64,000 nucleotides of DNA from Curvibacter sp. AEP1-3 (lineage in GTDB: Bacteria > Pseudomonadota > Gammaproteobacteria > Burkholderiales > Burkholderiaceae_C): NCBI RefSeq assembly GCF_002163715.1, contig NZ_CP015698.1, positions 1,984,001 through 2,048,000 of the forward strand, read 5' to 3'. The translations under genes and the position numbers were made by a program. Position 1 is the stretch's first letter. Each line of letters starts with the position of its first letter. The notes beneath the pieces were generated by a model. The model was not told the DNA's origin. It made no database searches and saw nothing but the letters and a program-made list of their open reading frames with translations. This document shows positions 811 to 64,000 of this stretch, piece by piece.

Positions 811-868
811 GGCCTTTAACGCTCGTGGATATTGCGCAAACTGCTCCTGTTTTTATAGCATTTAAAAG
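811..868 (+). repeat. Family A palindromic repeat, copy 1 (intergenic)
   Basis: A diverged copy of the family A element between the GlcG-like gene and the ankyrin gene. It contains AACGCTCGTGGATATTGCGC, then AACTGCTCCTG and TTATAGCATTT. This matches the pattern AGCGCCCGTGGAATATGCGC / GAGCAGCTATCAAA seen elsewhere in the window. Confidence 0.7.
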
Positions 869-878
869 ATAAAGCACC

Positions 879-1583
879 ATGTCAACCCCCGGTAGCACCC
901 GGCTTGTCCGGACCCTTCGATTCGCCCTGCTACTGGCGGGTATGGCATGGCTGCCGCTATCTCAGGCGCAGGTAGCGCCCACGGCCGCCGAGACAGCGGC
1001 CTACCGCGGCCTGCACGCGGCGTCGGCGCGGGGCGATATGGCCACACTCACGCAGCTGCTGAGCGCCAAAGCCGACATCAACCAACGCGATGCCTATGGC
1101 CGCACGCCCTTGCATGTGGCCACCTTTGCCAAACAGCGCGCGGCGGTGCGCGCCTTGATTCAAGCGGGCGCTGACACCGGCGCTTTGGAAAATGACCGGT
1201 ACGACGCTGTCACCATCGCCGCAGTGGCCGATGACGAGGAAACCTTGCGCACCCTGCTGGGCCTGGGCGCCAGCGCCAAGCTGGTGACCAGCCGCTACGA
1301 CGGCACGGCGTTGATTGCGGCCGCTCACCTGGGCCACGACGGCGTGGTGCGCCAGCTGATTGCCGCCGGCGCCCCGCTGGACCATGTAAACAACCTGCAC
1401 TGGACCGCGACCATTGAATCCATCGTGCTGGGCAACGGAGGCGCCCGCCACCAAGCCACACTGAGGGCCTTGGTGGAAGCAGGCGCTAACTTGCAACTCA
1501 CGGACCGCCACGGCAAGACGCCGCTTGATCTGGCGCGCAGTTATGGCTACGCAGAGATGGTGCGTTTGCTGGAGAAGCGCTAG
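879..1583 (+). CDS. Secreted ankyrin-repeat protein
   Basis: A 234-residue protein with a signal peptide (hydrophobic FALLLAGMAWLPLSQAQ) followed by about five ankyrin repeats. Typical repeat signatures are DAYGRTPLHVATFAKQRAAV, ALIQAGAD, GTALIAAAHLGHDGVVRQLI, ALVEAGANLQLTD and HGKTPLDLARSYGYAEMV. Ankyrin repeats mediate protein-protein contacts, so a periplasmic binding or inhibitor role is possible, but nothing in the sequence identifies the partner. The gene follows a family A repeat and ends 8 bases before the convergent end of tyrS. Confidence 0.85.
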   Translation: MSTPGSTRLVRTLRFALLLAGMAWLPLSQAQVAPTAAETAAYRGLHAASARGDMATLTQLLSAKADINQRDAYGRTPLHVATFAKQRAAVRALIQAGADTGALENDRYDAVTIAAVADDEETLRTLLGLGASAKLVTSRYDGTALIAAAHLGHDGVVRQLIAAGAPLDHVNNLHWTATIESIVLGNGGARHQATLRALVEAGANLQLTDRHGKTPLDLARSYGYAEMVRLLEKR

Positions 1584-1591
1584 GCCCGGAC

Positions 1592-2836
1592 TCAGGCCAG
1601 GGTCACGCGGGCAAACTTGCGCTTGCCCACTTGCAGCACGTAGGTACCCGCGCCGAGCTTCAAGCCCTTGTCGCTCACCACATTGCTGTCCACTCGCACA
1701 CCGCCACCGTCAATCAGGCGGTTGCCCTCCCCGCTGGAGGCGGCCAGGTTCGCAGACTTCAACAGCGCGGCAATACCCACCGCTGCGCCACCCTCGCCCA
1801 GTGACAAGGTAATTTCGTCGATCTGGTCCGGGATACCGCCCTTGCTGCGGTTGATGAAGTCCTGCTCTGCCGCATCGGCCGCAGCAGCACTATGGAAGCG
1901 CGCTGTGATTTCTTTGGCAAGCGCCACCTTGGCATCTTTGGGGTTGCGCCCGCCTTCCACCTCGGCCTTGAGCGCTGCAATCTCCGCCTCGCTCTTGAAG
2001 CTGAGCAGCGTGTACCACTTCCACATCAGCACGTCTGAGATGGACAACACCTTGGCGAACATGGTGTTGGGCTCTTCAGAGATGCCGATGTAGTTGTTCT
2101 TGCTCTTGGACATTTTCTCCACGCCGTCCAGCCCTTCGAGCAGCGGCATGGTCAAGATGCACTGAGGCTCCTGGCCGTATTCGGCCTGCAGGGTGCGGCC
2201 CATGAGCAGATTGAACTTCTGATCGGTGCCGCCCAGCTCCAGGTCGCTCTCCAGCGCCACGGAGTCGTAGCCCTGCATCAGCGGGTAGAGGAATTCGTGC
2301 ACCGCAATCGGGGTGCCCGCGTGGAAGCGGTCGTGGAAGTCGTTGCGCTCCATCATGCGGGCCACGGTGTAACGGCTGGCCAACTGAATCATGCCGCGCG
2401 CGCCCAGCGGGTCGCTCCACTCGCTGTTGTAGCGGATCTCGGTTTTGGCCGGGTCCAGCACCAGGCTGGCCTGGCGGTAGTAGGTCTCGGCGTTGACCTT
2501 GATCTGCTCGGCGGTGAGCGGCGGGCGCGTGCTGTTGCGGCCGGATGGGTCGCCAATCATGCTGGTGAAGTCACCGATCAAAAAGATGACCGTGTGGCCC
2601 AGATCTTGCAGCTGGCGCATCTTGTTCAGCACCACGGTGTGGCCGATGTGGATGTCAGGCGCGGTCGGATCCAGCCCCAGCTTGATGCGCAGCGGTTTGC
2701 CGGTGGCCTCGGACTTGGCGAGCTTTTTCACCCATTCGTCTTGCGGGAGCAGTTCTTCCACGCCGCGCAGGGTGACCGCAAGGGCCTCGCGCACACGATC
2801 GCTTACAACTAACTGAGGGCTTAAGGCTTGATTCAT
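1592..2836 (-). CDS. tyrS: Tyrosyl-tRNA synthetase
   Basis: A 414-residue class I aminoacyl-tRNA synthetase that charges tRNA-Tyr in the cytoplasm. The ATP-binding HIGH signature is seen at residues 63-66 ([10 protein letters not shown]) and the KMSKS loop near residue 241 (EKMSKSKNN). An S4-like RNA-binding tail ends the protein ([17 protein letters not shown]). The length and the order of motifs fit the TyrZ-like subgroup. I chose ATG 2836 ([10 protein letters not shown]); a longer frame reaching 2896 adds a non-conserved leader. It is divergent from the M23 peptidase gene. I see no T-box leader. Confidence 0.96.
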
Positions 2837-11750: not shown

Positions 11751-12674
11751 TCAGCCCGCCTTGCGGGCACAAATAAAGAATTCGCGGTTCCCGTCTCCGC
11801 CTTCAATGGCGGAGTCGAACCAATGCGTCACGGTCAGCCCCAGATCGGCGCAGGTCCCGCGCAAGCGCTGTTCCACAATGGGGTACATGGCCGGGTCCTT
11901 GACGATACCGCCCTTGCCCACCTGGCCAGGCTGCAATTCAAACTGCGGCTTCACCAAGGTCAGCATGATGCCGCCCTCTTTCAACAAGGGCACTGCAGCA
12001 GGCAATACCAGGGTCTGCGAAATGAAGGACAGGTCAGCGACCAAGAGGTCAAACGGCGGCGCAAACTCAGACGGCAGCTCCACGGCCTCTTCTTCAGCAT
12101 CATCCGACGCATCCACGGGCGGGCGGGAGTCATCTTCGTCGTCGAAGTCATCCCCATCATCCCAGCCGTCATCGCCATCGGGTTCAACATCAAATTGACC
12201 ACCAGCGCCCGTGCTATCTGCGTAAGCAGCTATCAAATCTGCAGCAGACAGGGTGCGGGCATTGACACTCTCGACACACAGCACGCGTGTATCGTCGCGC
12301 AGCGTTGGATGCAACTGGGCACTGCCCACATCCACACCCACCACCGATTGCGCGCCAGCTTGGAGCAGGCAGTCGGTGAAGCCACCGGTGCTCTGCCCCA
12401 CATCCAGACAACGCAAGCCGGTGACAGTCAAGCCTACGTGCTTCAGCGCCGCCTCGAGCTTGAGGCCACCGCGGGACACATAACGCGCTTCGGAATCATC
12501 GAGCAAACGGATCTTGGCGCCATCGGGCACTTCGTCGCCATTTTTGGCCACACGCTTCCAGACTTCGCCCGAAAGCTCCATCTTCAGCCACTCCACGCCA
12601 TCCGCAATCAGGCGCTGAGCCTGCGAGCGGGTGCTGGCCAGCCCGCGCTGCACCAAAAGTTGATCAATTCGCAT
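11751..12674 (-). CDS. tlyA: TlyA-family rRNA 2'-O-methyltransferase with acidic insertion
   Basis: A 307-residue TlyA (S4 domain plus RrmJ/FtsJ methyltransferase). The S4 RNA-binding part is RIDQLLVQRGLASTRSQAQR. The SAM motif is CLDVGQSTGGFTDCLLQ, and DLLVADLSFISQTLVLPA, LVKPQFE and GNREFF follow. TlyA proteins are usually near 245-270 residues. The excess is between residues about 145 and 205: a family A repeat encodes LIAAYADSTGAG, followed by a highly acidic stretch rich in Asp and Glu (GDDGWDDGDDFDDEDD). The insertion lies between two conserved strands and keeps the frame, so the enzyme may still be functional. It lies in the ahcY-metF operon. Confidence 0.9.
   Translation of the reverse strand: MRIDQLLVQRGLASTRSQAQRLIADGVEWLKMELSGEVWKRVAKNGDEVPDGAKIRLLDDSEARYVSRGGLKLEAALKHVGLTVTGLRCLDVGQSTGGFTDCLLQAGAQSVVGVDVGSAQLHPTLRDDTRVLCVESVNARTLSAADLIAAYADSTGAGGQFDVEPDGDDGWDDGDDFDDEDDSRPPVDASDDAEEEAVELPSEFAPPFDLLVADLSFISQTLVLPAAVPLLKEGGIMLTLVKPQFELQPGQVGKGGIVKDPAMYPIVEQRLRGTCADLGLTVTHWFDSAIEGGDGNREFFICARKAG
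12203..12237 (+). repeat. Family A palindromic repeat, copy 2 (in frame in tlyA)
   Basis: CAGCGCCCGTGCTATCTGCG then TAAGCAGCTATCAAAT. The element runs antisense to tlyA and contributes about a dozen codons (roughly residues 146-158) directly before the acidic insertion. Confidence 0.85.
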
Positions 12675-12788: not shown

Positions 12789-14309
12789 TTAATAGCGGTA
12801 CGTGTCTTTCTTGTACGGACCGGCTTTGCTCACGCCGATGTACGAAGCCTGCTCGTCGGTCAGTTCGGTCAACATGGCGCCGACCTTCTTCAGGTGCAAA
12901 CGTGCCACCTTTTCGTCCAGGTGCTTGGGCAACACATAAACCTTACCGGCCTTGTAATCCTTGGGCTTGGTGAACAGTTCGATCTGGGCGATCGTCTGGT
13001 TCGCAAAGCTGGAAGACATCACAAAGCTAGGGTGGCCGGTACCGCAACCCAGGTTCACCAAGCGGCCCTTGGCCAACAGGATGATGCGCTTGGAAGCCTT
13101 CTTGCCCTTGGCGGGGAAAATCACGTGGTCCACCTGGGGCTTGATCTCTTCCCACTTGCACTTGGACAGGGAAGCCACATCGATTTCATTGTCGAAGTGA
13201 CCGATGTTGCAGACGATGGCCTGGTCCTTCATCGCATCCATGTGCGCGTACGTGATCACGTTCTTGTTGCCAGTGGTGGTCACGAAAATGTCGGCCTTGT
13301 CGGCAGCGTATTCCATGGTCACAACCTTGTAGCCTTCCATGGCGGCTTGCAGGGCGTTGATCGGGTCGATTTCTGTCACCCACACTTGGGCGGACAAAGC
13401 ACGCAGCGCTTGGGCAGAACCCTTGCCCACGTCACCGTAACCCGCCACCACAGCCACCTTGCCGGCGATCATCACGTCAGTCGCACGCTTGATACCGTCG
13501 ACCAGGGATTCGCGGCAACCGTACAGGTTGTCGAACTTGCTCTTGGTCACCGAATCGTTCACGTTGATGGCGCGCAGGGCCAGAGTGCCCTTGGCGGACA
13601 TTTCTTCCAGACGCATCACACCGGTGGTGGTTTCTTCGGTCACGCCGATGATGTTCTTCAGGCGACGGCTGTACCAGGTGGGGTCCACCTTCAGCTTGGC
13701 CTTGATGGCATTGAACAGGCACACTTCTTCTTCGCTACCGGGCTTGGCCAGCACCTTGATGTCTTTCTCAGCGCGAGCGCCCAGGTGCATCAGCAAGGTG
13801 GCATCGCCGCCGTCGTCCAGAATCATGTTCGGGCCTTCGGCCGCAGTGCCCTTCTTGCCACCGAATTCAAAAATGCGGTGGGTGAAGTCCCAGTACTCTT
13901 CCAGCGACTCACCCTTGTGTGCGAACACGGGGGTGCCCTTGGCCACCAGCGCAGCGGCTGCGTGGTCCTGGGTGGAGAAGATGTTGCAAGAAGCCCAACG
14001 CACATCTGCGCCCAAGGCTTGCAGGGTTTCGACCAGCACGCCGGTCTGGATGGTCATGTGCAGGGAACCAGTGATGCGTGCGCCTTTCAGAGGCTGGCTC
14101 TTGGCGAACTCTTCACGGATGGCCATCAGGCCGGGCATTTCGGTTTCGGCGATGGTCAGCTCTTTGCGGCCCCAATCGGCCAGGCTCAGGTCGGCGACTT
14201 TGTAGTCTTCAAATTGGGCCACGACGGCCTTGGCAGCGGAAACCGCTTTGACGGCCTTCACAGCTTTGGGGGTCTTGGCGTTCTTAACCAGTTTCAATAC
14301 AGCGCTCAT
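12789..14309 (-). CDS. ahcY: S-adenosylhomocysteine hydrolase
   Basis: A 506-residue AhcY that splits SAH into adenosine and homocysteine. Visible signatures include [21 protein letters not shown] text (read as [16 protein letters not shown]), the NAD-binding [19 protein letters not shown], and the C-terminal [12 protein letters not shown] with the NAD-contacting Lys and Tyr. The start is ATG 14309, preceded by GGAG. The N-terminus carries a basic extension with a KAVKAVKAV repeat before the conserved [14 protein letters not shown]. Its leader holds an SAH riboswitch, so accumulated SAH is expected to switch the gene on. tlyA and metF follow on the same strand. Confidence 0.97.
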
Positions 14310-17370: not shown

Positions 17371-18231
17371 GTGAAACCCCTGGCGCAATGGCCGGTGGAC
17401 AGCCGCCGTGCCATCCGCGGGGTGTTCACCGATATCGACGACACCCTCACCCACGACGGCCACATTGCACGCGCGGCGCTGCAGGCGCTAGGGGACCTGA
17501 AGGCGGCCGGGCTGACGGTGATCCCCATCACCGGGCGGCCCATCGGCTGGTGCGAGCCCTTCATGGCGGTCACCAACGGCCCGGCCTGGCCGGTGGATGC
17601 CATGGTGGCGGAGAACGGGGCCGTGGCTTTTGTACCCGGCCCTGCCTACGCGGTTACTAGCCAAATTGACCTCCAGCGCCCGTCGGATATGCGCGGGGCG
17701 CTATCAAAACGATATCAACAAAGTGCTGAAGTGCGCACCGCCAACAGGCTGCGCATGGACTCCATTGCCGCCCAAGTCTGCGCCGAAGTGCCGGGCATGG
17801 AGCTCAGCCGCGACAGCGCGGGCCGCGAAACCGACCTCGCGTTCGACTACGCCGAATTTGCCCATCACTCGCCCGAAACGGTGCAACGCGTGCTGGCCCT
17901 GCTGCAAAGCCACGGCATGCAAACCACGGTGAGTAGCATCCACATTCACGGCTGCTTCGGGGACTTCAACAAATGGACCGGCGCCTGCTGGATCGTCCGC
18001 GAGTTGTTGGATCGTGACCTGAGCACCGAGTTGGACCAGTGGGTGTTTGTGGGCGACTCGGGCAACGACCAAGCCATGTTCCAGCACTTCACCCACAGCG
18101 CGGGCGTGGCCAACATAGCGCGCTTTGTGCCACAGCTCAGCCACCTGCCGACCTACCTCACGCCTTCTGCGCGAGGCGCAGGTTTTGCCGAGGTGGCCCG
18201 CGCCATTCTGGAAGCACGTTCTCTTGCATAA
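17371..18231 (+). CDS. HAD-superfamily phosphatase (Cof/MPGP-like)
   Basis: A 286-residue HAD hydrolase. Motif I is FTDIDDTLTHDG (nucleophile Asp in DxDDT), motif II is PITGRPIG, and motif IV is VFVGDSGNDQAMF. The cap resembles the C2 type of Cof, sucrose-phosphate and mannosyl-3-phosphoglycerate phosphatases; the substrate is unknown. The start is GTG 17371. A family A repeat at 17667-17716 lies in frame and encodes about residues 99-116 (LQRPSDMRGALSKRY), probably an added loop in the cap domain. The downstream MFS gene overlaps its end. Confidence 0.85.
   Translation: MKPLAQWPVDSRRAIRGVFTDIDDTLTHDGHIARAALQALGDLKAAGLTVIPITGRPIGWCEPFMAVTNGPAWPVDAMVAENGAVAFVPGPAYAVTSQIDLQRPSDMRGALSKRYQQSAEVRTANRLRMDSIAAQVCAEVPGMELSRDSAGRETDLAFDYAEFAHHSPETVQRVLALLQSHGMQTTVSSIHIHGCFGDFNKWTGACWIVRELLDRDLSTELDQWVFVGDSGNDQAMFQHFTHSAGVANIARFVPQLSHLPTYLTPSARGAGFAEVARAILEARSLA
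17667..17716 (+). repeat. Family A palindromic repeat, copy 3 (in frame in HAD gene)
   Basis: CCAGCGCCCGTCGGATATGC followed by GCGGGGCGCTATCAAAAC. The element is in the same orientation as the gene and its whole length is translated without a stop. Confidence 0.8.
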
Positions 18232-21246: not shown

Positions 21247-21267
21247 GATGGCTGAAGAAACAAATGA

Positions 21268-21320
21268 GCCACTAGCGCACGTGGAATATGCGCAAGCAGC
21301 TATCTAATAAATAGCAAATC
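21268..21320 (+). repeat. Family A palindromic repeat, copy 4 (intergenic)
   Basis: CACTAGCGCACGTGGAATAT then GCGCAAGCAGCTATC and AATAAATAGCAAA. It lies between the APAH gene and the PPC/DUF296 gene. Confidence 0.85.
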
Positions 21321-21732
21321 AGTTCCGGGGACGGATCACCAGTTCATCGTATCCGGTGAGCGAATCCGGCTCGCGGGTGAACTGCCAGTCGGGCAGCAGG
21401 GCCAGCAGCACCTCGGCCGTGGTGAGCACGATGCAGCCCGGCGCCACATGCCCGCCCAGCACCTGCCCCTTGGCCGTAGAAATAGCCATGTGCATATGCG
21501 AGCCCGTCTTGTCGCCACCGGCGGCCACCGTGCCCGAGAGGGTGAGGATCTCCATGCTTTCGGTCAGCCGCGTGGGTTGCGCCGCGCCTGCCAGGCGGAT
21601 GCCCGCCGTGGACAGGCTGCCGATGCCGGACAACACGAACGCTGCGCGGCAGTTTTGGGCGAGAACCGCGGCTTCCAGCGCGGCGCGCAGGTCTTGGCCG
21701 GGGGTGAGACGAACAGGAAATGGCTTCATCAA
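21319..21732 (-). CDS. PPC/DUF296 domain protein
   Basis: A 137-residue single-domain protein of the PPC (plants and prokaryotes conserved, DUF296) family. It has the order FPVRLTPGQDLRAALEAAV, FVLSGIGSLSTAGIRLAG, GSHMHMAIS and VLGGHVAPGCIVLTTAEV; the HMH and GGH histidines form the usual metal-site pattern. In plants the domain accompanies AT-hook proteins; in bacteria the role is unknown. It begins with two adjacent Met codons and I kept the first. Family A repeats lie at both ends. Confidence 0.88.
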   Translation of the reverse strand: MMKPFPVRLTPGQDLRAALEAAVLAQNCRAAFVLSGIGSLSTAGIRLAGAAQPTRLTESMEILTLSGTVAAGGDKTGSHMHMAISTAKGQVLGGHVAPGCIVLTTAEVLLALLPDWQFTREPDSLTGYDELVIRPRN

Positions 21733-21748
21733 ATCCCTCTCAAATCAG

Positions 21749-21800
21749 CCACCAGCGCCCATGAAATATGCGCGAGCAGCTCTTTTATTGATAGCAAACA
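21749..21800 (+). repeat. Family A palindromic repeat, copy 5 (intergenic)
   Basis: CACCAGCGCCCATGAAATAT, GCGCGAGCAGCTC and TTGATAGCAAA. It lies between the PPC/DUF296 gene and murA. Confidence 0.85.
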
Positions 21801-21818
21801 CGCTTTCGCGTGCTGCCT

Positions 21819-23223: not shown

Positions 23224-23940
23224 TCAGGCGGCCAGCCAGCGGGCGAAGGCGGCGTTGACGGCGTCGGGCTGCTCCATCGTGCTCATATGGCCGCAGTCTT
23301 CCAGCACCACCAGCTCCGCGCGCACGGCGTGCATGGCGTCCACCATGGCCTGGTGCTGCTCGGGCGGGCTCCAGGCGTCTTGCCGGCCGGTGAGCACCAG
23401 CGTCGGGCAGGTGATGCCGGCAAGCACCGGTGCGGCATCGGGCCGGGTGAGTAGCGCATTGATTTGCGCGGCAAACTGGGCAGGACTGCTGCGCTCCAGC
23501 ATGGCCAGCACTTGCTCGAACACCGGGCCACCCACCACGGCGGGGTGCACCATGGGGCGTACCCACATGGCGCCCATGGCCCGCATGCCGGCGCGCTGTG
23601 CGTGCGACAGCAGGGCCATGCGGCCGGCTTTTTCTTTGGCGCCGGCTTTGCCCTCTGCCAAGGGGTGCACGCCGGTGTCCAGCAAGGCCAGGCGCTCTAC
23701 CCGCCCGGGGGCCAGGCGCATCAACTCCAGGGCCACGCGCCCGCCCATGCTGTGGCCGGCCAGGGCAAAGGTGGCAGGGGCGGCGGCCAGCACCTGCTGC
23801 GCCATGGCGGTGAGCGAGTCGGTCAGGCCCCAGTCCATCACCATGCAGTGGTGGCTGGCGGACAAGGCCTGCACCTGCGGTGCCCAGACGGCGGCATCGC
23901 ACATCAGGCCGGGGAGTAATACGAGGTTTTTGGTAGTCAA
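23224..23940 (-). CDS. Alpha/beta hydrolase
   Basis: A 238-residue alpha/beta hydrolase. The nucleophile elbow is ALAGHSMGGRVALEL (GxSxG), the acidic residue is probably in PTLVLTGRQDAWSPP and the His in EDCGHMSTMEQPDAV, as in MhpC/BioH-like enzymes. It begins MTTKNLVLLPGLMCDAAVW. The substrate is unknown. It lies between murA and the LysR gene on the same strand, separated from the latter by a family A repeat, and no pathway link is evident. Confidence 0.88.
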   Translation of the reverse strand: MTTKNLVLLPGLMCDAAVWAPQVQALSASHHCMVMDWGLTDSLTAMAQQVLAAAPATFALAGHSMGGRVALELMRLAPGRVERLALLDTGVHPLAEGKAGAKEKAGRMALLSHAQRAGMRAMGAMWVRPMVHPAVVGGPVFEQVLAMLERSSPAQFAAQINALLTRPDAAPVLAGITCPTLVLTGRQDAWSPPEQHQAMVDAMHAVRAELVVLEDCGHMSTMEQPDAVNAAFARWLAA

Positions 23941-23942
23941 AT

Positions 23943-23990
23943 CAGGCTCCAGCGCTCGCAGAATATGCGCGAGCAGCTATCAAAAAAGTA
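23943..23990 (+). repeat. Family A palindromic repeat, copy 6 (intergenic)
   Basis: CTCCAGCGCTCGCAGAATAT then GCGCGAGCAGCTATCAAAAA. It lies between the alpha/beta hydrolase gene and the LysR gene and is among the closest copies to the consensus. Confidence 0.88.
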
Positions 23991-24056
23991 GTGAATCAAT
24001 TGGTGCGCCAGAGCAAAACTTGCCTGCCCGGCGCTGCAGCTCACACTGTAGCGGCA

Positions 24057-28138: not shown

Positions 28139-28172
28139 CGCACATAGAGCATGCGCTAACAGCTATCAATTC
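28133..28172 (+). repeat. Family A palindromic repeat, copy 7 (spans a stop codon)
   Basis: CTCTAGCGCACATAGAGCAT then GCGCTAACAGCTATCAATTC. The TAG stop of the upstream FAD oxidase is part of the element, and the ribosome site of the next gene (AGGAG) begins at its right edge. Confidence 0.82.
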
Positions 28173-28182
28173 AGGAGCAATC

Positions 28183-45748: not shown

Positions 45749-48700
45749 TCAAACCCGCGACAATACCCCCGCCAGCGCCACGCCCGTGTGGGTACCTAAC
45801 TTGACCACGTCTTCCGGCGTAGTGGCCGCCACCACGCGGCCACCGCCGTTGCCACCTTCTGGGCCAAGGTCCAGCACCCAGTCGGCTTCGGCGATCACAT
45901 CGAGGTCGTGCTCAATGACCACCACGCTGTGGCCGCCGTTGACCAAGCGGTGCAGTACATGGATGAGCTTTTCCACATCGGCCATGTGCAGGCCCACGGT
46001 AGGTTCGTCCAGCACGTAGAGCGTGTGCGGCACCTTGTTGCCGCGCTTGCCCACGTCGTCGCGCACCTTGCTGAGTTCGGTGACCAGCTTGATGCGCTGT
46101 GCCTCGCCGCCACTCAATGTGGGTGACGGCTGTCCCAGCGTGAGGTAGCCCAGGCCCACGTCTTTGAGCAGCTGCAGAGGGTGGGCAATGACTGGCATGG
46201 CCGCGAAGAAATCGACCGCTTCATCGACTTCCATCTGCAGCACGTCGCCGATGTTTTTGCCGCGCCAGGTGACTGCCAGCGTTTCTGGGTTGAAGCGCGC
46301 ACCCTTGCAGGTTTCGCACACCACTTTGACATCCGGCAGGAAGCTCATGCCGATGGTGCGCATGCCCTGCCCTTCGCAGCTCGGGCAGCGACCTTCGCCG
46401 GTGTTGAAGCTGAAGCGGTTGGCCGCATAGCCGCGCGCCTTGGCTTCCAGCGTGTCGGCAAACAGTTTGCGGATGGTGTCCCAGAAGCCGATATAGGTGG
46501 CCGGGCAGGAGCGTGGTGTTTTGCCGATGGGCGTTTGGTCCACTTCGAGCACGCGGTCTATGGACTCATAGCCGGTCACGCCTTCGCAGCCGAGCCAGTC
46601 GATTTTTTCACCGGCCTCCAAGGCATCGCGACCGGCTTTGGTGCTGCGCTTTTGCACGGCGGTTTGCACGTTGGCCAGCAACACGTCACGCGCCAGGGTG
46701 GATTTGCCGGAACCGCTAACGCCGGTGATCGCCACCAGGCGTTTAAGCGGGACATGGGCGGTCACGCCTTGCAGGTTGTGCATGGTGGCGTTGTGGACGG
46801 TGAGCCAGTCGATTTTTGGTTTGTACGTTGCGGCTGTAGTTGCTGAACCCGCCATGGGTAGCCCGGCACCGGGCTCCTCAACCACTCGCTTTGCGAGCTC
46901 CAAATCGTCACCCACCCCGGGGCTACCCGCTGCTGCGACGGACATCTGGGCAGTGCGGCGGTCGGCTAACGCGGCGTATTCGGCAGCAACTTTGGTGCGT
47001 TCTGCTAGCTCCGTATTGGCGGCTGCGCTGTCGAGGATGCGCGCCGCCTCCACTGCTGCTTTCTGTGCTTTGGCACTGAGCTTTTTCGCAGGCTTACCGG
47101 CACCCGCGGTGGAGGTGCTTACGCCGGAAGCCGATTTCGAGCTCGCATCGCGAGCGTATGAGGCACCCGGCGTAAGCGCCTCCGCCGCGTCCAGCGCCAA
47201 TGTCTCACTAAACGAAACCATTCCTCGCCGCACAGCCAAGGGATGCTTCATGGCATGTAAGAGATACCGCCCGGTCTGAGACTCAGGAGCGTTCTGCACA
47301 TCGGCAATCGACCCCTGCGCCACCAAGCGCCCACCGCGTTTGCCGGCACTTGGCCCAATGTCGATGATGTGGTCCGCATGGCGGATGGTGTCTTCGTCGT
47401 GTTCCACCACGACCAGCGTGTTGCCCTTGTCACTCAAGCTCTGCAAGGCGCCTAGCAGAATCTTGTTATCGCGGGCATGCAGACCGATGGTCGGCTCGTC
47501 GAGTACGTAGCACACGCCTTGCAGGTTGCTGCCCAACTGCGCCGCCAGGCGGATACGCTGCGCCTCGCCACCACTGAGGGTCGGCGCCCCCCGGTCCAGC
47601 GTGAGGTAGCCCAGACCCACTTCTTCCAGAAACTCCAGGCGACTGCGAATTTCGGGCACCAGATCGCGGGCGATGTCGCCCTCGCGGGTCGTCATGCCGC
47701 CGGCCACTTGCAGGGTCTGCACCCACTGGCGCACATCAGTCACGGAGAGGCGTGCAATGTCGGTAATGCCCACACCCGCAAACTTCACGTTGCGCGCCGT
47801 GGCATTCAAGCGCGTGCCACTGCAGGTGGGACAGGCCTTGTCGTGCAGGTCTTCAATGTCGGCCTCGGCAAAGGTCTGCTCACGGCCTTTGTTGTCGTCG
47901 TCTTTCACCGAATCATCAAACACCTTGCGCTGCTCTTTGGTGAGCGCCACGCCGGTGCCTACGCAGTCGGGGCACCAGCCGTGTTTGCTGTTGTACGAGA
48001 ACAAGCGTGGGTCCAGCTCGGCATACGACGTCGCGCACACCGGGCAAGCGCGCTTGGTAGAAAACACCTGCACCTTGCCTACGCCTGCAGCCGACTCACC
48101 GGCCGCCATCACCTCCCGCAAGCTGCCAATGTCGCTCAGCACATAGACCACGCCCTTGCCATGGGTTAGCGCGTCGGCCAGCGCAGTGCGCAGGGCAGAC
48201 TCGTTGGAAGGGGTCACGTCCAGGCTGGCTACTGGCAACTCAATGTTGTGTTCCTTGAAACGGTCAATCCGCGGGAAGCCACTAGTGGGCAAAAAGTTAC
48301 CGTCCACCCGCAGGTGTGTGAAACCCTTGGGACGCGCCCAGTCGGCCAACTCGGTGTACACGCCCTTGCGCCCCTGCACCAGTGGTGCCAGCAGTCCAAT
48401 GTGCTGGCCGCGGTAGTTCTTGAGCAACTGGGCGGCAATGCTCTCGGCCGACTGCGGCTCCACGGCCGCACCGTCTTTGAAGCAATGCTGGGTGCCCAGC
48501 TTCACGTACAACAAGCGCAGGAAGTGCCACACCTCGGTGGTCGTACCCACCGTAGACTTGCGTCCGCCGCGCGAGAGCCGCTGCTCGATCGCCACCGTGG
48601 GCGGAATGCCATATACCGCATCCACCTCGGGGCGACCTGCAGGTTGCACGATGGAGCGGGCATAGGCATTCAAGGATTCGAGGTAACGCCGCTGCCCTTC

Positions 48701-51700
48701 GTTGAACAGGATGTCAAACGCCAGCGTCGACTTGCCGGAACCGGACACACCGGTCACCACGCTGAACTTGCCGCGTGGAATATCCACCGACAAAGACTTG
48801 AGGTTGTGCTCCTTTGCATTGACGATACGAATGGAATTCGACGTGTCGACCACGCCCGCCCCGGAGGCGGATGGGCTTGCGCCGGAAGCCGATTTCGAGC
48901 TCGCAGCGCGAGCGTATGAGGCGCCCGGCGTGAGCCCGTCCGCCGCAGCAACAGAAGTAAACGTAGCCGACGACTCCGCCACCTCATGCACCACTCCCAT
49001 CGCAGCCGCGTATTCCCGCAACGCCTTACCCGTGTGCGACGTGGCATGCAACAACAGGTCCTCCGGCGTGCCATACGCCACCACCTGCCCGCCCGCATCC
49101 CCGCCCTCGGGGCCGAGATCGATCAACCAGTCGGACGCACGAATCACATCGAGGTTGTGCTCAATCACCACCAGCGAATGGCCGGCGTCCAGCAACTTGC
49201 GCAGCGCGCGCATCAGCTTGGCGATGTCTTCAAAGTGCAGACCCGTAGTCGGCTCGTCCAACATGAACAGCGAGCCCTTGCGCGCCAGCAACTGCTTGCT
49301 CGCACTGGAGCTCTTGGCCGCTTCGGCCAGAAAGCCTGCGAGTTTGAGACGTTGCGCCTCACCACCCGACAGCGTGGGCACCGGTTGGCCCAACTTCACA
49401 TATTCCAAGCCCACATCCACGATGGGTTGCAGCACGCGAATGACCTCACGGTCCGCACTGAACAAGTCCGCCGCTTCGCTCACTGTGAGTTCCAGCACAT
49501 CAGCCACATTCACATGGCGGCCCTTGCGCTCAATCGTCACTTCCAGAATCTCGGGGCGGTAACGCTTGCCATCGCAGTCAGGGCAACGCAAATACACATC
49601 ACTCAGGAACTGCATTTCCACATGCTCAAAGCCCGAGCCACCGCAGGTAGGGCAACGACCATCGCCACTGTTGAAGCTGAATTTGGCGGCGGTGTAGCTG
49701 CGTTCCCTCGACAAGGCGGCGCCCGCGAACAACTCGCGGATCGCGTCCCACGCGCCGACGTAGCTCACCGGGTTGGATCGCGCCGTTTTGCCGATGGGCG
49801 ACTGGTCCACAAACACAATGTCGCTGAGCTGCTCCGCACCCAGCAGGCTGGTGTGGGCGCCCGGTGTTTCGGTGGCTTTGCCGAAGTGACGCAACAAGGC
49901 GGGGGCCAGCACATCCTGAATCAGCGTGGACTTGCCGGAACCGGACACACCTGTCACGCAGACCAAACGCTGCAGCGGAATTTCCACCGACACATTCTTG
50001 AGGTTGTGCTCGGTCACGCCCTCCAGAATCAGGCGCGGGTTGTTCGGCGCGACCATGCGCTTGAAGCCCATGCCCACCTGCTTGCGACCGCCCAGGTAGG
50101 CGCCGGTCATGGTGTTTGCCCCCTTGAGGGCCTCGGTGGTACCGTCAAATACGATCTGACCGCCCTTCTCACCCGGACCGGGTCCCATGTCGATCATGCG
50201 GTCGGCAGCCAGCATTACGGCCGGGTCATGCTCCACCACCACCAGCGTATTGCCTGCATCGCGCAAGCGCTGCATGGCCACGATGATGCGGTTCATGTCG
50301 CGCGGGTGCAGGCCGATGCTGGGCTCGTCCAGCACAAACAGTGTATTGACCAGCGAGGTGCCCAACGCGGTGGTGAGGTTGATGCGCTGCACCTCGCCGC
50401 CACTCAGCGTGCGGCTCTGACGGTCCAGAGTGAGGTAGCCAATACCCACATCGCACAGGTATTTGAGGCGGGTACCCACCTCTTCGAACAGCAGCTTGAG
50501 GGTTTTGTGCTCGGCCTCGGAGGCGGTAGGCGCAGTTTTCTCCGGAGCCACATCTTCCGAACGCGCAGCGGAGTCCGGAGTGCCGGAAGGGGCCGATTTG
50601 CTACTCGCGAAGCGAGTTGATGAGGCCACTGCCGACACGCCGGGCTCCGCCCCCCCAAAGACGCCAAGATCACTTTGCAGCGCATCAAAAAACCGCTTGA
50701 GTCGATCCAAAGGCATCAGCATCAAATCGTGTAGCGACAAGCCGGGCAGCGCTTCCAGTTGCTCACGAGACCACTTCACGCCCTTGGGCATGAAACGCTT
50801 GGCCGGGTCCAGCGCCATGTCGGCCTGGTCCTTGGTGCCTATGCGCCAAAGCAGGCTCTCCGTCTTCAAGCGCGAGCCACTGCAGGTCGGGCAAGTCGTG
50901 TAACTGCGGTACTTGGACAAGAGCACACGGATGTGCATCTTGTAAGCCTTGGTCTCCAGGTATTCAAAGAAGCGGTCCACGCCGAACCAGTGCTGGTTCC
51001 ACTTGCCGTTCCAGTTCGGTGAGCCCTTGAGCACCCAGTGCTTTTGTTCTGCAGTCAACTTGTACCAAGGCGTATCACGCGGGATACCGCTGGCCTCGGC
51101 GTGGCGCATCAGGTCGTCCTGGCATTCCTGCCAAGCCGGCGTCTGCATGGGCTTGACTGCGCCGGCGCGCAGGGTGAGTTTGTCATTGGGGATGACCAAC
51201 CCATAGTCCACCCCGACCACGCGCCCGAAGCCGCGGCAGGCGTCGCAAGCGCCCACCGCCGAATTGAAGCTGAACATCGACGCAATCGGGTCGGTATAGC
51301 GGATATCGCTCTGAGGGCAGTGCAGGCCGGTCGAAAAGCGCCAGATCTCAGGCGCTGCGTTTGCTATGGTTTCAGGAGCTACTAGCGCACTATCCACGGG
51401 CGCCAGAGCCTCTTTCAGCACATAAGCATTCAATCGCCCGCTGCCGCGCTTGAGGGAGGTCTCGATAGCCTCCAGAACGCGTGCTTTTTCCACACCGTCG
51501 ATGCGGAAGCGGTCCGCCACGACGTCCAGCACTTTGCGCACGCCATTGACGGTAGATACCTCCCGCTCGGCCTGCACACGGGTGAAGCCGCTGGCGCTCA
51601 GCCACTGGGTTACTTCGTCAGGGGTGGCGTTGCCAGGCAGCTCTACTGGAAAGGTCAGCACCAAGCGGGGATTACCTTCGGCAGCGGCGCGCTGCAGCAG

Positions 51701-52120
51701 CGTGGTGTAAATCGTCTCGGGGGTGTCGTGCTGCACCGGCAAGGCGGTGTCTTTGTCAAACAGGCTACCCGCGCGGGAAAACAGGAGCTTGAGGTGGTCG
51801 TTGAGCTCCGTCATCGTGCCCACGGTGGAGCGGCTGGAGCGCACCGGATTGGTCTGGTCAATCGCAATCGCAGGCGGGACACCTTCTACCTTGTCAACGG
51901 CGGGCTTGTCCATGCGGTCCAGAAACTGGCGCGCATAGGCGCTGAAGGTTTCCACATAGCGGCGCTGACCCTCGGCGTACAGCGTGTCGAACACCAGGCT
52001 GGACTTTCCCGAACCGCTGGGGCCGGTGACCACGGTCAGCTCACCCGTGCGGATGTCCAGATCGAGGTTCTTGAGATTGTGCTGTCGCGCCCCGCGAATG
52101 CGGATGGTGCCCTGGGTCAT
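45749..52120 (-). CDS. uvrA: Double-length UvrA (four ATPase modules)
   Basis: A 2123-residue protein equal to two UvrA chains in tandem. UvrA recognises DNA damage as a dimer and loads UvrB. Four Walker A motifs (GPSGSGKSS, then GVSGSGKST three times), four LSGGE signatures and four sets of zinc-finger cysteines (CDACRGFG/CPTCSGSR, CPTCGGSG/CPDCDGKR, CPDCVGTG/CPTCSGTR, CPSCEGQG/CETCKGAR) are visible. The result is a covalent pseudo-dimer. I chose ATG 52120 (MTQGTIRIRGARQHNLKNLD). Five short repeats are inserted in frame at residues about 237-254 (family A), 491-518, 1059-1085, 1646-1670 and 1731-1755 (family B), all in linkers. Double-length UvrA is known in Burkholderiales, usually beside a normal uvrA elsewhere. 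Confidence 0.95.
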   Translation of the reverse strand: MTQGTIRIRGARQHNLKNLDLDIRTGELTVVTGPSGSGKSSLVFDTLYAEGQRRYVETFSAYARQFLDRMDKPAVDKVEGVPPAIAIDQTNPVRSSRSTVGTMTELNDHLKLLFSRAGSLFDKDTALPVQHDTPETIYTTLLQRAAAEGNPRLVLTFPVELPGNATPDEVTQWLSASGFTRVQAEREVSTVNGVRKVLDVVADRFRIDGVEKARVLEAIETSLKRGSGRLNAYVLKEALAPVDSALVAPETIANAAPEIWRFSTGLHCPQSDIRYTDPIASMFSFNSAVGACDACRGFGRVVGVDYGLVIPNDKLTLRAGAVKPMQTPAWQECQDDLMRHAEASGIPRDTPWYKLTAEQKHWVLKGSPNWNGKWNQHWFGVDRFFEYLETKAYKMHIRVLLSKYRSYTTCPTCSGSRLKTESLLWRIGTKDQADMALDPAKRFMPKGVKWSREQLEALPGLSLHDLMLMPLDRLKRFFDALQSDLGVFGGAEPGVSAVASSTRFASSKSAPSGTPDSAARSEDVAPEKTAPTASEAEHKTLKLLFEEVGTRLKYLCDVGIGYLTLDRQSRTLSGGEVQRINLTTALGTSLVNTLFVLDEPSIGLHPRDMNRIIVAMQRLRDAGNTLVVVEHDPAVMLAADRMIDMGPGPGEKGGQIVFDGTTEALKGANTMTGAYLGGRKQVGMGFKRMVAPNNPRLILEGVTEHNLKNVSVEIPLQRLVCVTGVSGSGKSTLIQDVLAPALLRHFGKATETPGAHTSLLGAEQLSDIVFVDQSPIGKTARSNPVSYVGAWDAIRELFAGAALSRERSYTAAKFSFNSGDGRCPTCGGSGFEHVEMQFLSDVYLRCPDCDGKRYRPEILEVTIERKGRHVNVADVLELTVSEAADLFSADREVIRVLQPIVDVGLEYVKLGQPVPTLSGGEAQRLKLAGFLAEAAKSSSASKQLLARKGSLFMLDEPTTGLHFEDIAKLMRALRKLLDAGHSLVVIEHNLDVIRASDWLIDLGPEGGDAGGQVVAYGTPEDLLLHATSHTGKALREYAAAMGVVHEVAESSATFTSVAAADGLTPGASYARAASSKSASGASPSASGAGVVDTSNSIRIVNAKEHNLKSLSVDIPRGKFSVVTGVSGSGKSTLAFDILFNEGQRRYLESLNAYARSIVQPAGRPEVDAVYGIPPTVAIEQRLSRGGRKSTVGTTTEVWHFLRLLYVKLGTQHCFKDGAAVEPQSAESIAAQLLKNYRGQHIGLLAPLVQGRKGVYTELADWARPKGFTHLRVDGNFLPTSGFPRIDRFKEHNIELPVASLDVTPSNESALRTALADALTHGKGVVYVLSDIGSLREVMAAGESAAGVGKVQVFSTKRACPVCATSYAELDPRLFSYNSKHGWCPDCVGTGVALTKEQRKVFDDSVKDDDNKGREQTFAEADIEDLHDKACPTCSGTRLNATARNVKFAGVGITDIARLSVTDVRQWVQTLQVAGGMTTREGDIARDLVPEIRSRLEFLEEVGLGYLTLDRGAPTLSGGEAQRIRLAAQLGSNLQGVCYVLDEPTIGLHARDNKILLGALQSLSDKGNTLVVVEHDEDTIRHADHIIDIGPSAGKRGGRLVAQGSIADVQNAPESQTGRYLLHAMKHPLAVRRGMVSFSETLALDAAEALTPGASYARDASSKSASGVSTSTAGAGKPAKKLSAKAQKAAVEAARILDSAAANTELAERTKVAAEYAALADRRTAQMSVAAAGSPGVGDDLELAKRVVEEPGAGLPMAGSATTAATYKPKIDWLTVHNATMHNLQGVTAHVPLKRLVAITGVSGSGKSTLARDVLLANVQTAVQKRSTKAGRDALEAGEKIDWLGCEGVTGYESIDRVLEVDQTPIGKTPRSCPATYIGFWDTIRKLFADTLEAKARGYAANRFSFNTGEGRCPSCEGQGMRTIGMSFLPDVKVVCETCKGARFNPETLAVTWRGKNIGDVLQMEVDEAVDFFAAMPVIAHPLQLLKDVGLGYLTLGQPSPTLSGGEAQRIKLVTELSKVRDDVGKRGNKVPHTLYVLDEPTVGLHMADVEKLIHVLHRLVNGGHSVVVIEHDLDVIAEADWVLDLGPEGGNGGGRVVAATTPEDVVKLGTHTGVALAGVLSRV
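46856..46928 (-). repeat. Family B element, copy 1 (in frame in uvrA)
   Basis: Terminal inverted repeats GGGTAGCCCGG and CCGGGGCTACCC flank a core with ACTCGCTTTGCGAGCTCC, a short stem-loop. It runs opposite to copies 2-4. Its translation in uvrA includes GDDLELAKRVVEEPGAG. Confidence 0.85.
47111..47183 (+). repeat. Family B element, copy 2 (in frame in uvrA)
   Basis: Terminal arms GCTTACGCCGG and CCGGCGTAAGC are perfect over 11 bases and extend to 17 with one mismatch. The core is GATTTCGAGCTCGCATCGCG followed by AGCGTATGAGG. It encodes LTPGASYARDASSKSASG in uvrA. Confidence 0.88.
48866..48944 (+). repeat. Family B element, copy 3 (in frame in uvrA)
   Basis: Imperfect arms CGGATGGGCTTGCGCCGG and CCGGCGTGAGCCCGTCCG (15 of 18 pairs) flank a core almost identical to copy 2. 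It encodes LTPGASYARAASSKSASG. Confidence 0.88.
50568..50650 (+). repeat. Family B element, copy 4 (in frame in uvrA)
   Basis: Arms GCGGAGTCCGGAGTGCCGG and CCGACACGCCGGGCTCCGC (16 of 19 pairs) flank the core GATTTGCTACTCGCGAAGCG. It encodes AVASSTRFASSKSAPSG in the first-half linker of uvrA. Confidence 0.82.
51361..51412 (-). repeat. Family A palindromic repeat, copy 8 (in frame in uvrA)
   Basis: Read on the minus strand: CTCTGGCGCCCGTGGATAGT then GCGCTAGTAGCTCCTG and ACCATAGCAAA. It is in the same orientation as uvrA and encodes EALAPVDSALVAPETIANA, in the variable region of the first module. Confidence 0.85.
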
Positions 52121-55757: not shown

Positions 55758-56525
55758 TTAAACAAAGGCTTCCGGGTGCGTTTGGCGCAGACGCTCAGTG
55801 ATCTGGCCCCACATCACCTTCTTGGCGGTATCGTCACTGCGGCCCCATTCGCGAATGTCTTCGATAGTGCGGAAGCACCCTTCGCACAAGCCACTACCCG
55901 TGTCCATGCGGCACACATTCACACAGGGACTCGGGATATTTTCGGCCATGGCGCCCACCGATACTGCGCGAGCAGCTAGCGTTTTGATAGCATTTTCGCG
56001 CGCCAGGGTATCCAGCACGTTTTCTTCATCCGGTGCTTCCACCACATCAGCCACAGGGGCACCTGTCAGCGCTACCAGATCCTGCGGATGCAACTGGAAC
56101 ACCCCGTGCGGGTGACCGGCTGCGGCCCACACTTGTTCAAAGCGGAATAGCTCGCGGTCAATCAAGGTGACACCGGGCATGGCATGCGCCACCGGGCTCA
56201 CCCCGCCAATGGAGAAGCCGGTGCGCTCCTTCACAAACGCTGCATTTGCACGCGCCAGCGGCCCCACCAGCGCGGCCACCTTGGCTTCGTCCACACGACG
56301 GTCACCAGAGGTCACTACCAGCACAGCCGCCTCATCAGCAACCCGCTTGAAGATGATGCTCTTGGCAATCTGGCCCACCGCCACGCCCAGCGCGTCTGCG
56401 GCCTGCTGAGCGGTGCGCGCAGCACCATCCAACATCACAGGGCCATGGGGATGATTTTTTTCTTGCAATGCAGCCGCTACGCGCTGCACGCCTTCAGGTA
56501 ATTCAGTCAATTCAGCTTCACACAT
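55758..56525 (-). CDS. YbaK/ProX aminoacyl-tRNA deacylase fused to DUF1289
   Basis: A 255-residue fusion. Residues 1 to about 165 are a YbaK-type editing domain (GQIAKSIIFKRV, FSIGGVSPVAHA, VFQLHPQDLVALTG), which hydrolyses mischarged tRNA. Residues 193-255 are a DUF1289 protein (MAENIPSPCVNVCRMDTGSG, LCEGCFRTIEDIREW), whose cysteine pattern suggests metal or Fe-S binding. The linker, about residues 177-192 (IKTLAARAVSVGA), is encoded by a family A repeat whose edge abuts the DUF1289 Met codon. The two domains are separate genes in most bacteria I know of. An internal start at 55949 is possible but has no ribosome site. Confidence 0.87.
   Translation of the reverse strand: MCEAELTELPEGVQRVAAALQEKNHPHGPVMLDGAARTAQQAADALGVAVGQIAKSIIFKRVADEAAVLVVTSGDRRVDEAKVAALVGPLARANAAFVKERTGFSIGGVSPVAHAMPGVTLIDRELFRFEQVWAAAGHPHGVFQLHPQDLVALTGAPVADVVEAPDEENVLDTLARENAIKTLAARAVSVGAMAENIPSPCVNVCRMDTGSGLCEGCFRTIEDIREWGRSDDTAKKVMWGQITERLRQTHPEAFV
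55951..55995 (+). repeat. Family A palindromic repeat, copy 9 (gene-fusion linker)
   Basis: GCGCCCACCGATACTGCGCG then AGCAGCTAGC and TTGATAGCATTTT. It lies antisense within the fusion gene, exactly between the YbaK and DUF1289 parts. Confidence 0.85.
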
Positions 56526-62739: not shown

Positions 62740-62744
62740 GCCGC

Positions 62745-63674
62745 TCAGTAGCCCCGCCCAGCATCCACCAACCCTGCCACCGACTGCCCGCTTTGCAGCG
62801 CTGCAATCTTGCGGGCGATCTGGGCAATGCTTTCCGAACGCAGGGTGCGCGCCGAGGTGTGCGGTGTGACCGTGATCTTGGGGTGCGCCCAGAACGCATG
62901 GCCTTTGGGTAGCGGCTCCACACGAAATACGTCCAGCGTGGCACCTGCAAGATGGCCACTATCGATGGCGGCGAGCAAATCAGCATCCACCACATGGGCA
63001 CCACGGGCTACGTTGATCACATAACCACCGGGGCGGATATGGGCCAGTGTGCGGGCATTGAGAATGCTTTCAGTCTCGGGCGTCAGAGGCAGCAGGCACA
63101 CCACGATGCGACTGGCCGCCAGAAAGTCCTTCAGCTGCGCTTCCCCATGGAAGCACTGCACGCCATCCAGATTTTTGGGTGAACGGCTCCAGCCATTCAC
63201 CGGAAAATCGAACTGCGCCACGGCTTTGGCCACGCGCTCGCCCAAGACCCCAAGCCCCAGCACGCCCACAGGGTAGTCCACCCGGCTGCGCGGCTTGCGG
63301 AAGGACCACTTGCCGTTGGCCATGTCGGCCTCGTAGCCATCGAACTCACGGAAGTGGCGGATCACAGCGTGGCACACATACTCCGCCATTTGCACCGACA
63401 TGCCGGCATCGTCCAAGCGGATGACGGGCACACCGGCCGGCAGGTTCAGCTTCATCAAGGCGTCTACACCGGCACCGGTGTTGAAGATGGCCTTCAAACC
63501 CCGTTGCTCGTCCAGCATCTGCTGCGGGGGTTTCCACACCACCGCGTAGTCCGCCGCCGGTGCGCCGGGTTGCCAGAGGCTGACCTCGGCGCCGGGAATG
63601 GCAGCTTGTAGGCCGGGGATCCAGGTGGCCTCGTCGAAATCGGCCGAATAGTAGGTAATGCGCAAAGAACTCAT
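62745..63674 (-). CDS. ghrA: Glyoxylate/hydroxypyruvate reductase A
   Basis: A 309-residue D-2-hydroxyacid dehydrogenase of the GhrA type, reducing glyoxylate or hydroxypyruvate with NAD(P)H. The cofactor fold shows GVLGLGVLGERVAKAVAQF. The catalytic residues are Arg in NVARGAHVVD, Glu in DVFRVEPLPKGH and His in VTPHTSARTL. The start is ATG 63674 (MSSLRITYYSADF); the frame can extend to 63713 but the added residues are not conserved-looking. Confidence 0.92.
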   Translation of the reverse strand: MSSLRITYYSADFDEATWIPGLQAAIPGAEVSLWQPGAPAADYAVVWKPPQQMLDEQRGLKAIFNTGAGVDALMKLNLPAGVPVIRLDDAGMSVQMAEYVCHAVIRHFREFDGYEADMANGKWSFRKPRSRVDYPVGVLGLGVLGERVAKAVAQFDFPVNGWSRSPKNLDGVQCFHGEAQLKDFLAASRIVVCLLPLTPETESILNARTLAHIRPGGYVINVARGAHVVDADLLAAIDSGHLAGATLDVFRVEPLPKGHAFWAHPKITVTPHTSARTLRSESIAQIARKIAALQSGQSVAGLVDAGRGY

Positions 63675-63709
63675 ATCCGCATTTTCACCGCAGCGCGGGC
63701 TGCCTTCCT

Positions 63710-64000
63710 TCAAGCGGAGACAGCCATGCGCAGAAGTTCGCTGCCCTCGGTTACCTGGTCGCCCGGCGCGAAAAGCAGTTCGCCCACGGTGCCGTCGGCC
63801 GGCGCGGCAATGGTGTGCTCCATCTTCATGGCCTCCATCACGGCGAGGGCCTGACCTTTCTTGACGGCATCGCCCGCCTTCACCGCAAACGACACCACTT
63901 TGCCGGGCATGGGCGCGGTCAGGCGGCCGCCTTCAGACTGGGCGTCGCCGGCATGGGCCAGGGCATCAATTGCTATGATTTGTGTAGCACCTCGCGCAGT
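63710..64000 (-). CDS. Acyl-CoA carboxylase alpha subunit, C-terminal biotinyl domain (partial)
   Basis: The 3' end of a gene that enters from the right edge; the frame is open to base 64000. The last part is a biotinyl domain: APMPGKVVSFAVKAGDAVKK, then VMEAMKMEHTIAAPADG with the biotinylated Lys, and LFAPGDQVTEGSELL. It belongs to a biotin-dependent acetyl-, propionyl- or 3-methylcrotonyl-CoA carboxylase. HMG-CoA lyase in the window makes methylcrotonyl-CoA a fair guess. A family A repeat encodes ARGATQIIAIDA just before the domain. Confidence 0.9.
   Translation of the reverse strand, partial: TARGATQIIAIDALAHAGDAQSEGGRLTAPMPGKVVSFAVKAGDAVKKGQALAVMEAMKMEHTIAAPADGTVGELLFAPGDQVTEGSELLRMAVSA
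63969..64000 (-). repeat. Family A palindromic repeat, copy 10 (cut by the window edge)
   Basis: On the minus strand ACTGCGCGAGGTGCTACACA then ATCATAGCAATT. It is in frame in the carboxylase gene, in the linker before the biotinyl domain. The left half of the element is beyond the window. Confidence 0.75.

Follow-up and report, generated by a model that had tools for sequence, protein, structure and literature searches.

A REP-like repeat of the Comamonadaceae, scattered through spacers and reading frames, and its association with a TIRYT-type transposase gene

Repetitive extragenic palindromic (REP) elements of the GTAG type end in GTAG in more than 90% of units, some families showing variants of the GYAG/GTRG type, and the genes of the REP-associated tyrosine transposases (RAYTs) have been described with two flanking inverted REPs (PMC2817692, PMC3733652). 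A paper of 2013 described REPs inside open reading frames (ORFs), uvrA included (PMC3733652). The TIRtron, with its terminal inverted repeat-associated tyrosine transposase (TIRYT), is a Y1 HUH transposase system with GGGGWSAS terminal repeats (PMC3733652), and for RAYT genes of subclass 2.1 no REP-like sequences are reported to have been found nearby (PMC6006769). Rickettsial palindromic elements (RPEs) carry a CGTC tag at the end, and no transposase is dedicated to CGTC repeats (PMC3733652). The betaproteobacterial repeat element (BRE) is about 90 bp long with 69% GC in Bordetella, present in up to 29 copies by the criteria of that paper and partly in tandem (PMC3110155). Here we describe a repeat of 60-70 bp that occurs ten times in a window of 64,000 nucleotides from Curvibacter sp. 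AEP1-3 (contig NZ_CP015698.1, positions 1,984,001 to 2,048,000), in spacers as well as inside genes. We read it, with a probability of roughly 0.7, as a family-restricted REP-like element tied to a TIRYT-type RAYT.

The ten copies were listed in a first-pass annotation of the window, and the coordinates of all ten proved correct. A self-trained profile detected them with nhmmer at E-values between 1.8e-20 and 3.9e-6, the next window match standing at E 0.52. With a covariance model built from the nine complete copies, these scored 56-75 bits (E at most 4.1e-14) and the next stretch 11.5 bits, while reversed-sequence controls on related stretches gave 0 matches, indicating that the family is real. 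The tenth copy is clipped by the window end (7.8 and 23 bits in two scans) and is complete in the genome, where it scores 40.8 bits. The gapless alignment of the nine complete copies has 60 columns, beyond which conservation reaches about 9 bases leftwards, from about 9 left of CAAAT to just beyond ATAGCAAA; the unit of 60-70 bp has a GC content of about 50% and the consensus CAAATnnGCCTCTAGCGCCCGTGGAATATGCGCGAGCAGCTATnAAATnnATAGCAAA. A GCGC-N11-GCGC stem is almost invariant, each of its base pairs being formed in 64-70 of 70 copies; covariation of the outer pairs around this stem was not above that of shuffles. A second hairpin with GCTAT...ATAGC arms was also considered and rejected, as its pairing is worse than in shuffles (496 of 500 reach it) and the arms are complementary in 25 of 90 copies against 33.7 expected, with no covariation. 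The dinucleotides of the left arm in these 90 copies, out of 111, were AT 46, CC 19 and AC 13 (ATAG, GGAG and GTAG on the opposite strand), and those of the right arm AT 59, GT 14 and GG 6. The second "palindrome" is a pair of inverted ATAG/GTAG/GGAG tags with no conserved stem, so that the element is palindromic, as had been claimed, in its GCGC stem and not in these arms. Read outward, the tags resemble the REP head motif in degenerate form. The consensus shows no terminal inverted repeats, and a consensus taken from 70 of 96 reference copies has no CGTC tag at its end.

In what follows G000 denotes the genome of the window, and other G- and L-numbers denote other genomes and their sampled loci. 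The model made from the nine complete window copies before any RAYT was viewed (R1) found at least 150 copies over the whole G000 genome, and a profile scan of 976 kb of sampled G000 sequence (22% of the genome) found 111, which extrapolates to about 500 copies per 4.38-Mb genome. By the gene calls of a simple in-house script, 50 of the 111 lie inside predicted genes (45%), another 41 stand between genes, and the remaining 20 overlap the end of a gene. Random placement would put 82% of copies inside genes; in an earlier set of 57 the number found there was 25. Copies avoid divergent spacers, which make up 35% of intergenic bases and contain 8 of the 61 noncoding copies. As first proposed, copies lie in frame in several genes and in both orientations. 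They are read mainly in one frame per strand, 24 of the 50 in-gene copies like DFESNRPLAPVEYARAAIKLIANK, 16 like LFAINLIAARAYSTGARGRFDSK and 10 otherwise, and these two frames are open in 61 and 71 of 110 copies. The host genes include those for TlyA, UvrA, MutL, MiaA, HemD and deoxyinosine glycosylase; in mutL (L057:4990-7005) a 34-bit copy lies in an apparent inter-domain linker. A replication-strand bias was considered and dropped (64 leading vs 86 lagging among 150 listed matches, p 0.086; the GC skew of 20 stretches served to guess origin and terminus). A 200-kb stretch of lower GC (C1:1684001-1884000, GC 0.539), perhaps acquired DNA, contains zero copies.

The repeat is nearly confined to the bacterial family of the window. 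R1 matched at least 16 of 41 relatives, at least 111 of 299 genomes and 60 of 141 genera in the family, and at least 13 of 399 genomes in the order, 4 of the latter belonging to other families and yielding one or two matches apiece. Within the genus, ten of 25 genomes have at least 119 scored copies, one has 13 and the others 0-3. The named records that carry the repeat are mainly Rhodoferax and other Comamonadaceae. Copy numbers in relatives are lower bounds, the best 150, 133, 18 or 13 candidates per genome having been scored, and weak matches were lost to the stricter filters of searches above 40 genomes.

The G000 genome contains one match to PF01797 (Y1 transposase), in a 240-aa ORF at C1:3624709-3625431, which matches NF047646, 'REP-associated tyrosine transposase', at 42.9 bits, below the cut-off of 80. 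A repeat-like copy stands 3' of its stop codon and runs into a TGTCCC terminal motif (23.1 bits, nhmmer only). GGGGWSAS-type terminal motifs (TGTCCC..., TCTGACCCC) and HUH were recognised by eye at RAYT genes, and the terminal repeats of the RAYT gene itself are GGGGTCAG. A repeat-like motif is present 3' of the RAYT gene at 23 of 27 element-rich vs 1 of 18 element-poor loci (p 1.6e-7, by a post hoc rule and uncorrected for shared ancestry). R1 itself matches directly 3' of the gene at 8 of the 27 rich loci (G009, G015, G111, G160, G161, G269, G282 and G294, several weakly at E 0.01-0.02) vs 0 of the 18 poor ones; by our own arithmetic, about 0.5 matches would be expected by chance in 150 bases at 27 loci at the G000 density. 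G003 was left out of these counts, as were L239-L241, L249 and L284, which have no RAYT-like ORF; G015 is counted twice, for its two RAYT loci. R1 matches on both sides of the gene, in direct orientation, were seen in G015 and more loosely in G269, and upstream matches also in G050 and G322. Of the 27 rich loci, 25 keep the catalytic tyrosine of the published Y---NP signature (PMC6006769), as do 12 of the 18 poor ones. In G000 and G007 the signature reads FMDLHP, with Phe in place of Tyr, and the enzyme of these two genomes is probably dead; Tyr is also lost elsewhere, for example in the element-poor Rhodoferax G018, G006 and G014, and in G001 and G020 Tyr is kept and NP is not.

Like the GTAG REPs with their RAYTs (PMC2817692, PMC3733652), the present repeat is short, high in copy number, hairpin-bearing, scattered and rare in divergent spacers; a copy adjoins a single-copy Y1 transposase gene, and some copies lie inside ORFs, uvrA included. 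Unlike them, it has a 60-70 bp unit, a tag that is mostly ATAG with GGAG and GTAG variants, and a second inverted tag, the RAYT gene usually has a 3' copy only, and 45% of the sampled copies are inside predicted genes. The transposase gene with its GGGGWSAS-type terminal motif resembles TIRYT/TIRtron (PMC3733652), that is, subclass 2.1 of PMC6006769. The likeness is drawn from the terminal motif; a repeat copy between gene and terminal motif, and hundreds of dispersed copies, set the present system apart from that subclass as described there. The RPEs, named at first as the precedent for palindromic repeats in frame in unrelated genes (here 50 of 111 copies), are a fair but incomplete one; our consensus has no terminal CGTC such as theirs (PMC3733652), and the REP/RAYT elements are closer. 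The repeat differs from miniature inverted-repeat transposable elements in having neither terminal inverted repeats nor an empty site with a duplication. Like BRE, it occurs in Comamonadaceae with some copies inside coding sequence (PMC3110155); from BRE it is set apart, by description only, by its GC of about 50% and its some 500 dispersed copies. A literature search that excluded subscription papers and preprints found no published description of this repeat.

As the UvrA and TlyA alignments show, the in-gene copies are old and occupy length-variable linkers or ends; that they lie in linkers agrees with the first-pass annotation. A UvrA segment of about 20 residues is present in G000, G001, G007 and G015, while the proteins of G018, G004, G125, G058 and most others are shorter. 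This linker is generally variable in length, being long also in G055, which has a weak copy (L128, 24 bits), and in G036, where an element-free linker of similar length stands. The TlyA segment is present in 18 of 18 Rhodoferax aligned, and the DNA repeat is found at this site in nine other Rhodoferax at 21-55 bits. It had been suggested that homologues in distant genera with the same peptide and no DNA repeat would mark the in-gene copies as ordinary protein. The outcome is mixed: five element-poor Rhodoferax (G004, G006, G014, G018, G021) do keep the TlyA peptide without the DNA repeat, while the repeat is matched as DNA at this site of tlyA in three further genera (G055, L161; G063, L157; G111, L158). 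Six element-free genera have a short TlyA linker.

For YbaK and DUF1289, 25 of 30 listed loci were used, and of the 24 that contain both parts, 8 have them fused and 16 as separate genes. R1 matches at the start of the DUF1289 gene in ten separate loci (G063, G044, G326, G043, G111, G079, G125, G055, G042, G050) and at the junction in six fused ones. With the repeat, the spacer between the two protein matches is 74-107 bases long; in the six separate loci without a match it is 20, 35 and 59 bases, that is shorter, in G047, G051 and G053, and 73, 125 and 132 in G041, G045 and G058. In-frame insertion, the original proposal, does not describe this case simply, the copy standing at a separate DUF1289 start in ten relatives and becoming internal after fusion; from the gene arrangements it is clear that fusion turned a copy at the gene start into an inter-domain linker. 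Insertion at uvrA and at DUF1289 is likely, supported though unproven, both linkers being length-variable regardless. The fused genes of the element-poor Rhodoferax G018 and G006 (L298, L299) have no repeat and an unrelated linker, through either repeat loss or a separate fusion.

Most copies keep their place and length between species. Both flanks of 36 G000 copies were placed in G007 for 31, with a counterpart for 30, of which 26 are of exactly the same length, and in G001 for 33, with a counterpart for 28, of which 24 are of the same length. A second syntenic set of 26 G000 copies gave 10 same-length counterparts with a match, 3 of the same length without one, 9 other gaps and 4 copies without flanks. 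One difference of 44 bp, enclosed by TAAAAACA repeats, has the appearance of a deletion in G000. The lack of visible movement in G000 and G007 coincides with the probably dead enzyme, a correlation and no proof.

The counterparts allowed substitutions to be counted, for which only flank gaps of exactly 72 were used (26 of the 36 copies for G007; 24 of the 36 plus 13 more for G001). The consensus bases change at a low rate; this is clear for copies outside genes and less sure for those within them. Between G000 and G007, 39 of 780 consensus positions differ in the 26 copies, compared with 112/1092 in other columns and 265/3120 in the flanks, and the substitutions lean neither way (53:65). In noncoding copies, changes at consensus vs other columns number 0/168 vs 14/204 on the G007 branch and 5/173 vs 18/208 on the G000 branch; the noncoding G000-G001 comparison gives 26/291 at consensus positions vs 79/392 in flanks. 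For in-gene copies the G007 branch gives 8/378 vs 16/475, the consensus value being no lower than that of the flanks (35/1410). At synonymous sites of in-gene copies, G000 and G001 differ at 39/229 consensus positions, 71/245 other repeat positions and 285/824 positions of flanking codons. The G000-G001 differences in consensus columns lean 26:6, with G000 holding the consensus, so that ascertainment matters; under the harshest correction, in which the 26 are doubled, the synonymous value becomes 59/229. The G007 pair, which has no lean, gives 16/163 vs 80/567 (p 0.19). A strong claim of in-gene synonymous constraint was given up on account of this lean and the non-significant G007 pair, and such constraint is at most suggested by these counts. 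The tag codon is ATA or CTA in 16 of 16 YbaK-DUF1289 loci with an R1 match (by eye, and R1 detection itself favours the tag), xTA making up 5.65% of Ile, Leu(CTN) and Val codons. The same codon of TlyA is ATA or GTA in 8 of 10 aligned loci with a copy and in 0 of 3 element-poor Rhodoferax (GTC, ATT, CTG).

Several observations weigh against an element spread by RAYT. The tag is mostly ATAG rather than the canonical GTAG. Neither transposition nor RAYT binding was seen, and the syntenic comparisons of three species revealed no empty site with a target duplication among close relatives; 5 of 33 copies (window copy 4 among them) have no detectable counterpart in G001 and 1 of 31 in G007, and one case of presence and absence, case A, which may be a gain or a loss, shows no duplication. 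RAYT genes are present in most element-poor genomes as well, none was found with two inverted copies (the usual arrangement is a single 3' copy), and 4 of the 27 rich loci have no 3' copy by the motif rule, a rule devised after the sequences had been viewed. An R1 match anywhere in the 3-kb RAYT locus was dropped as evidence: 10 of 27 loci have one, roughly what the genome-wide density predicts, and R1 matches at these loci are informative by position only. Because of this background and of the mixed DUF1289 spacers, our confidence was lowered in favour of the view that the repeats are immobile, a genome-wide DNA-binding or chromosome-organising motif that arose and was selected on existing spacer and coding sequence. 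Their constant length and the slower change of consensus columns suit such a motif, as do the rare ATA/CTA tag codons, the lack of a clean empty site, and the element-free linkers of similar length in the UvrA of G036 and the ybaK-DUF1289 spacers of G041, G045 and G058. We nevertheless consider it unlikely: most element-free UvrA linkers and the spacers of G047, G051 and G053 are shorter by roughly the expected length, the RAYT-adjacent copy tracks abundance, the consensus is a specific 60-mer and no short motif, and the low-GC stretch of 200 kb is free of copies. Somewhat less probable still is a domestication, in which the Tyr-less transposase would have been kept as a sequence-specific DNA-binding protein and some 500 sites, those in synonymous codons included, would be selected as its putative binding sites.

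Two further explanations concern the translated copies. Selection of the segments as protein spacers, the use proposed at first, would account for the preference for two frames within genes and for the position of the YbaK-DUF1289 segment between its two domains. It is nonetheless improbable, the two frames encoding unrelated peptides and being open in 21 and 33 of 61 noncoding copies also, and codon positions 1 and 2 in non-consensus columns changing faster than flanking codons (121/751 vs 202/2042); what is conserved instead is the nucleotide consensus. That the in-gene matches are ordinary protein sequence with a chance resemblance to the repeat may hold for the weakest of them, which fall on conserved protein motifs, such as a doubtful second match in mutL (L057:5315, 23.9 bits). 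As a general account it is hardly credible, given the reversed controls with 0 matches and scores of 56-63 bits for four of the five in-gene copies of the window, the fifth being clipped by the window end.

The REP-like element tied to RAYT may then be pictured as follows. The unit consists of one GC-rich hairpin adjoining two inverted REP-type tags (CTAT...ATAG; mainly ATAG, GTAG and GGAG). It would have been spread in the past by the single-strand transposase encoded by the single-copy RAYT/TIRYT gene; in element-rich genomes a copy usually stands between the RAYT stop codon and the downstream terminal motif. Insertions would have survived where they were harmless, in tandem and convergent spacers and in length-tolerant protein linkers and termini, the latter tolerating copies because one frame per strand is often open. 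In the lineage of the window, with a transposase lacking the catalytic tyrosine and no active insertion visible, the copies seem to have become fixed. At the DNA level the noncoding copies are still kept close to the consensus, and so, less surely, are those inside genes.

The copies of the window and their host genes are listed in the table. Five copies are in genes (tlyA, a HAD-IIB hydrolase gene, uvrA, the YbaK-DUF1289 gene and the end of a biotin-carboxyl-carrier-type gene), four are intergenic, and one overlaps both the final 2 bases of a gene and the region where the following gene starts. This last one, copy 7, has the GGAG form of the right tag just 5' of an ATG, as has a copy at L059:2991-3062 (AGGAGCAATCATG, AGGAGTAATCATG); the repeat seems to supply a ribosome-binding site there, the GGAG of copy 7 being the apparent Shine-Dalgarno sequence of the downstream gene. 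At the site of copy 5, which holds a single copy in G000 and G001, two copies in G007 bracket about 3.6 kb (L103 7478-11111); this points to a recombination or insertion event at the repeats. Soon after copy 6, a stretch of 9.5 kb (window about 24055-33539) is present in G000 and not at that place in G007 or G001. Rfam gave one match in the window and none to the repeat: an S-adenosylhomocysteine (SAH) riboswitch (RF01057, 14387-14494, minus strand, 48.4 bits), directly upstream of the gene at 12789-14369.

Table. Repeat copies in the window and the genes that contain them
Feature	Position	Strand	Description
Copy 1	795..866	+	Intergenic; same site occupied in G007 and G001
Copy 2	12181..12252	+	Within tlyA, antisense to the gene, which reads LSAADLIAAYADSTGAGGQFD there
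tlyA (rRNA 2'-O-methyltransferase), host of copy 2	11751..12674	-	TIGR00478 165.3 bits (below cut-off of 185.8), PF01728 127.4 bits
Copy 3	17652..17723	+	Within HAD-IIB hydrolase gene, sense; site also occupied in G015 (L112:11898, 32.7 bits)
HAD-IIB hydrolase, host of copy 3	17371..18231	+	TIGR01484 60.7 bits (cut-off 41.8)
Copy 4	21251..21322	+	Intergenic; site occupied in G007; about 1.1 kb of other sequence instead in G001
Copy 5	21731..21802	+	Intergenic
Copy 6	23928..23999	+	Intergenic
Copy 7	28114..28185	+	Between two genes; downstream ATG at 28183
Copy 8	51356..51427	-	Within uvrA, sense; gene reads LKEALAPVDSALVAPETIANA there
uvrA (long, 2123 aa), host of copy 8	45749..52120	-	NF001503 1924 bits
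Copy 9	55927..55998	+	Within YbaK-DUF1289 fusion gene, antisense, between both domains
YbaK (tRNA_edit, aa 35-152) and DUF1289 (aa 199-245) fusion, host of copy 9	55758..56525	-	PF04073, PF06945
Copy 10	63965..64000	-	Clipped by window end; within biotin-carboxyl-carrier-type gene (PF00364)

The association described here links a large repeat family of the Comamonadaceae to a transposase type that has been reported without REP-like partners. The UvrA linker, the DUF1289 start and the YbaK-DUF1289 linker would be instances, datable through comparison, in which mobile DNA turned into protein, and the question of what holds hundreds of REP copies near their consensus when the transposase appears dead becomes testable. 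If the tag bases are kept even at synonymous codons, anyone annotating genes or studying codon use in this family will have to reckon with DNA sites within genes.

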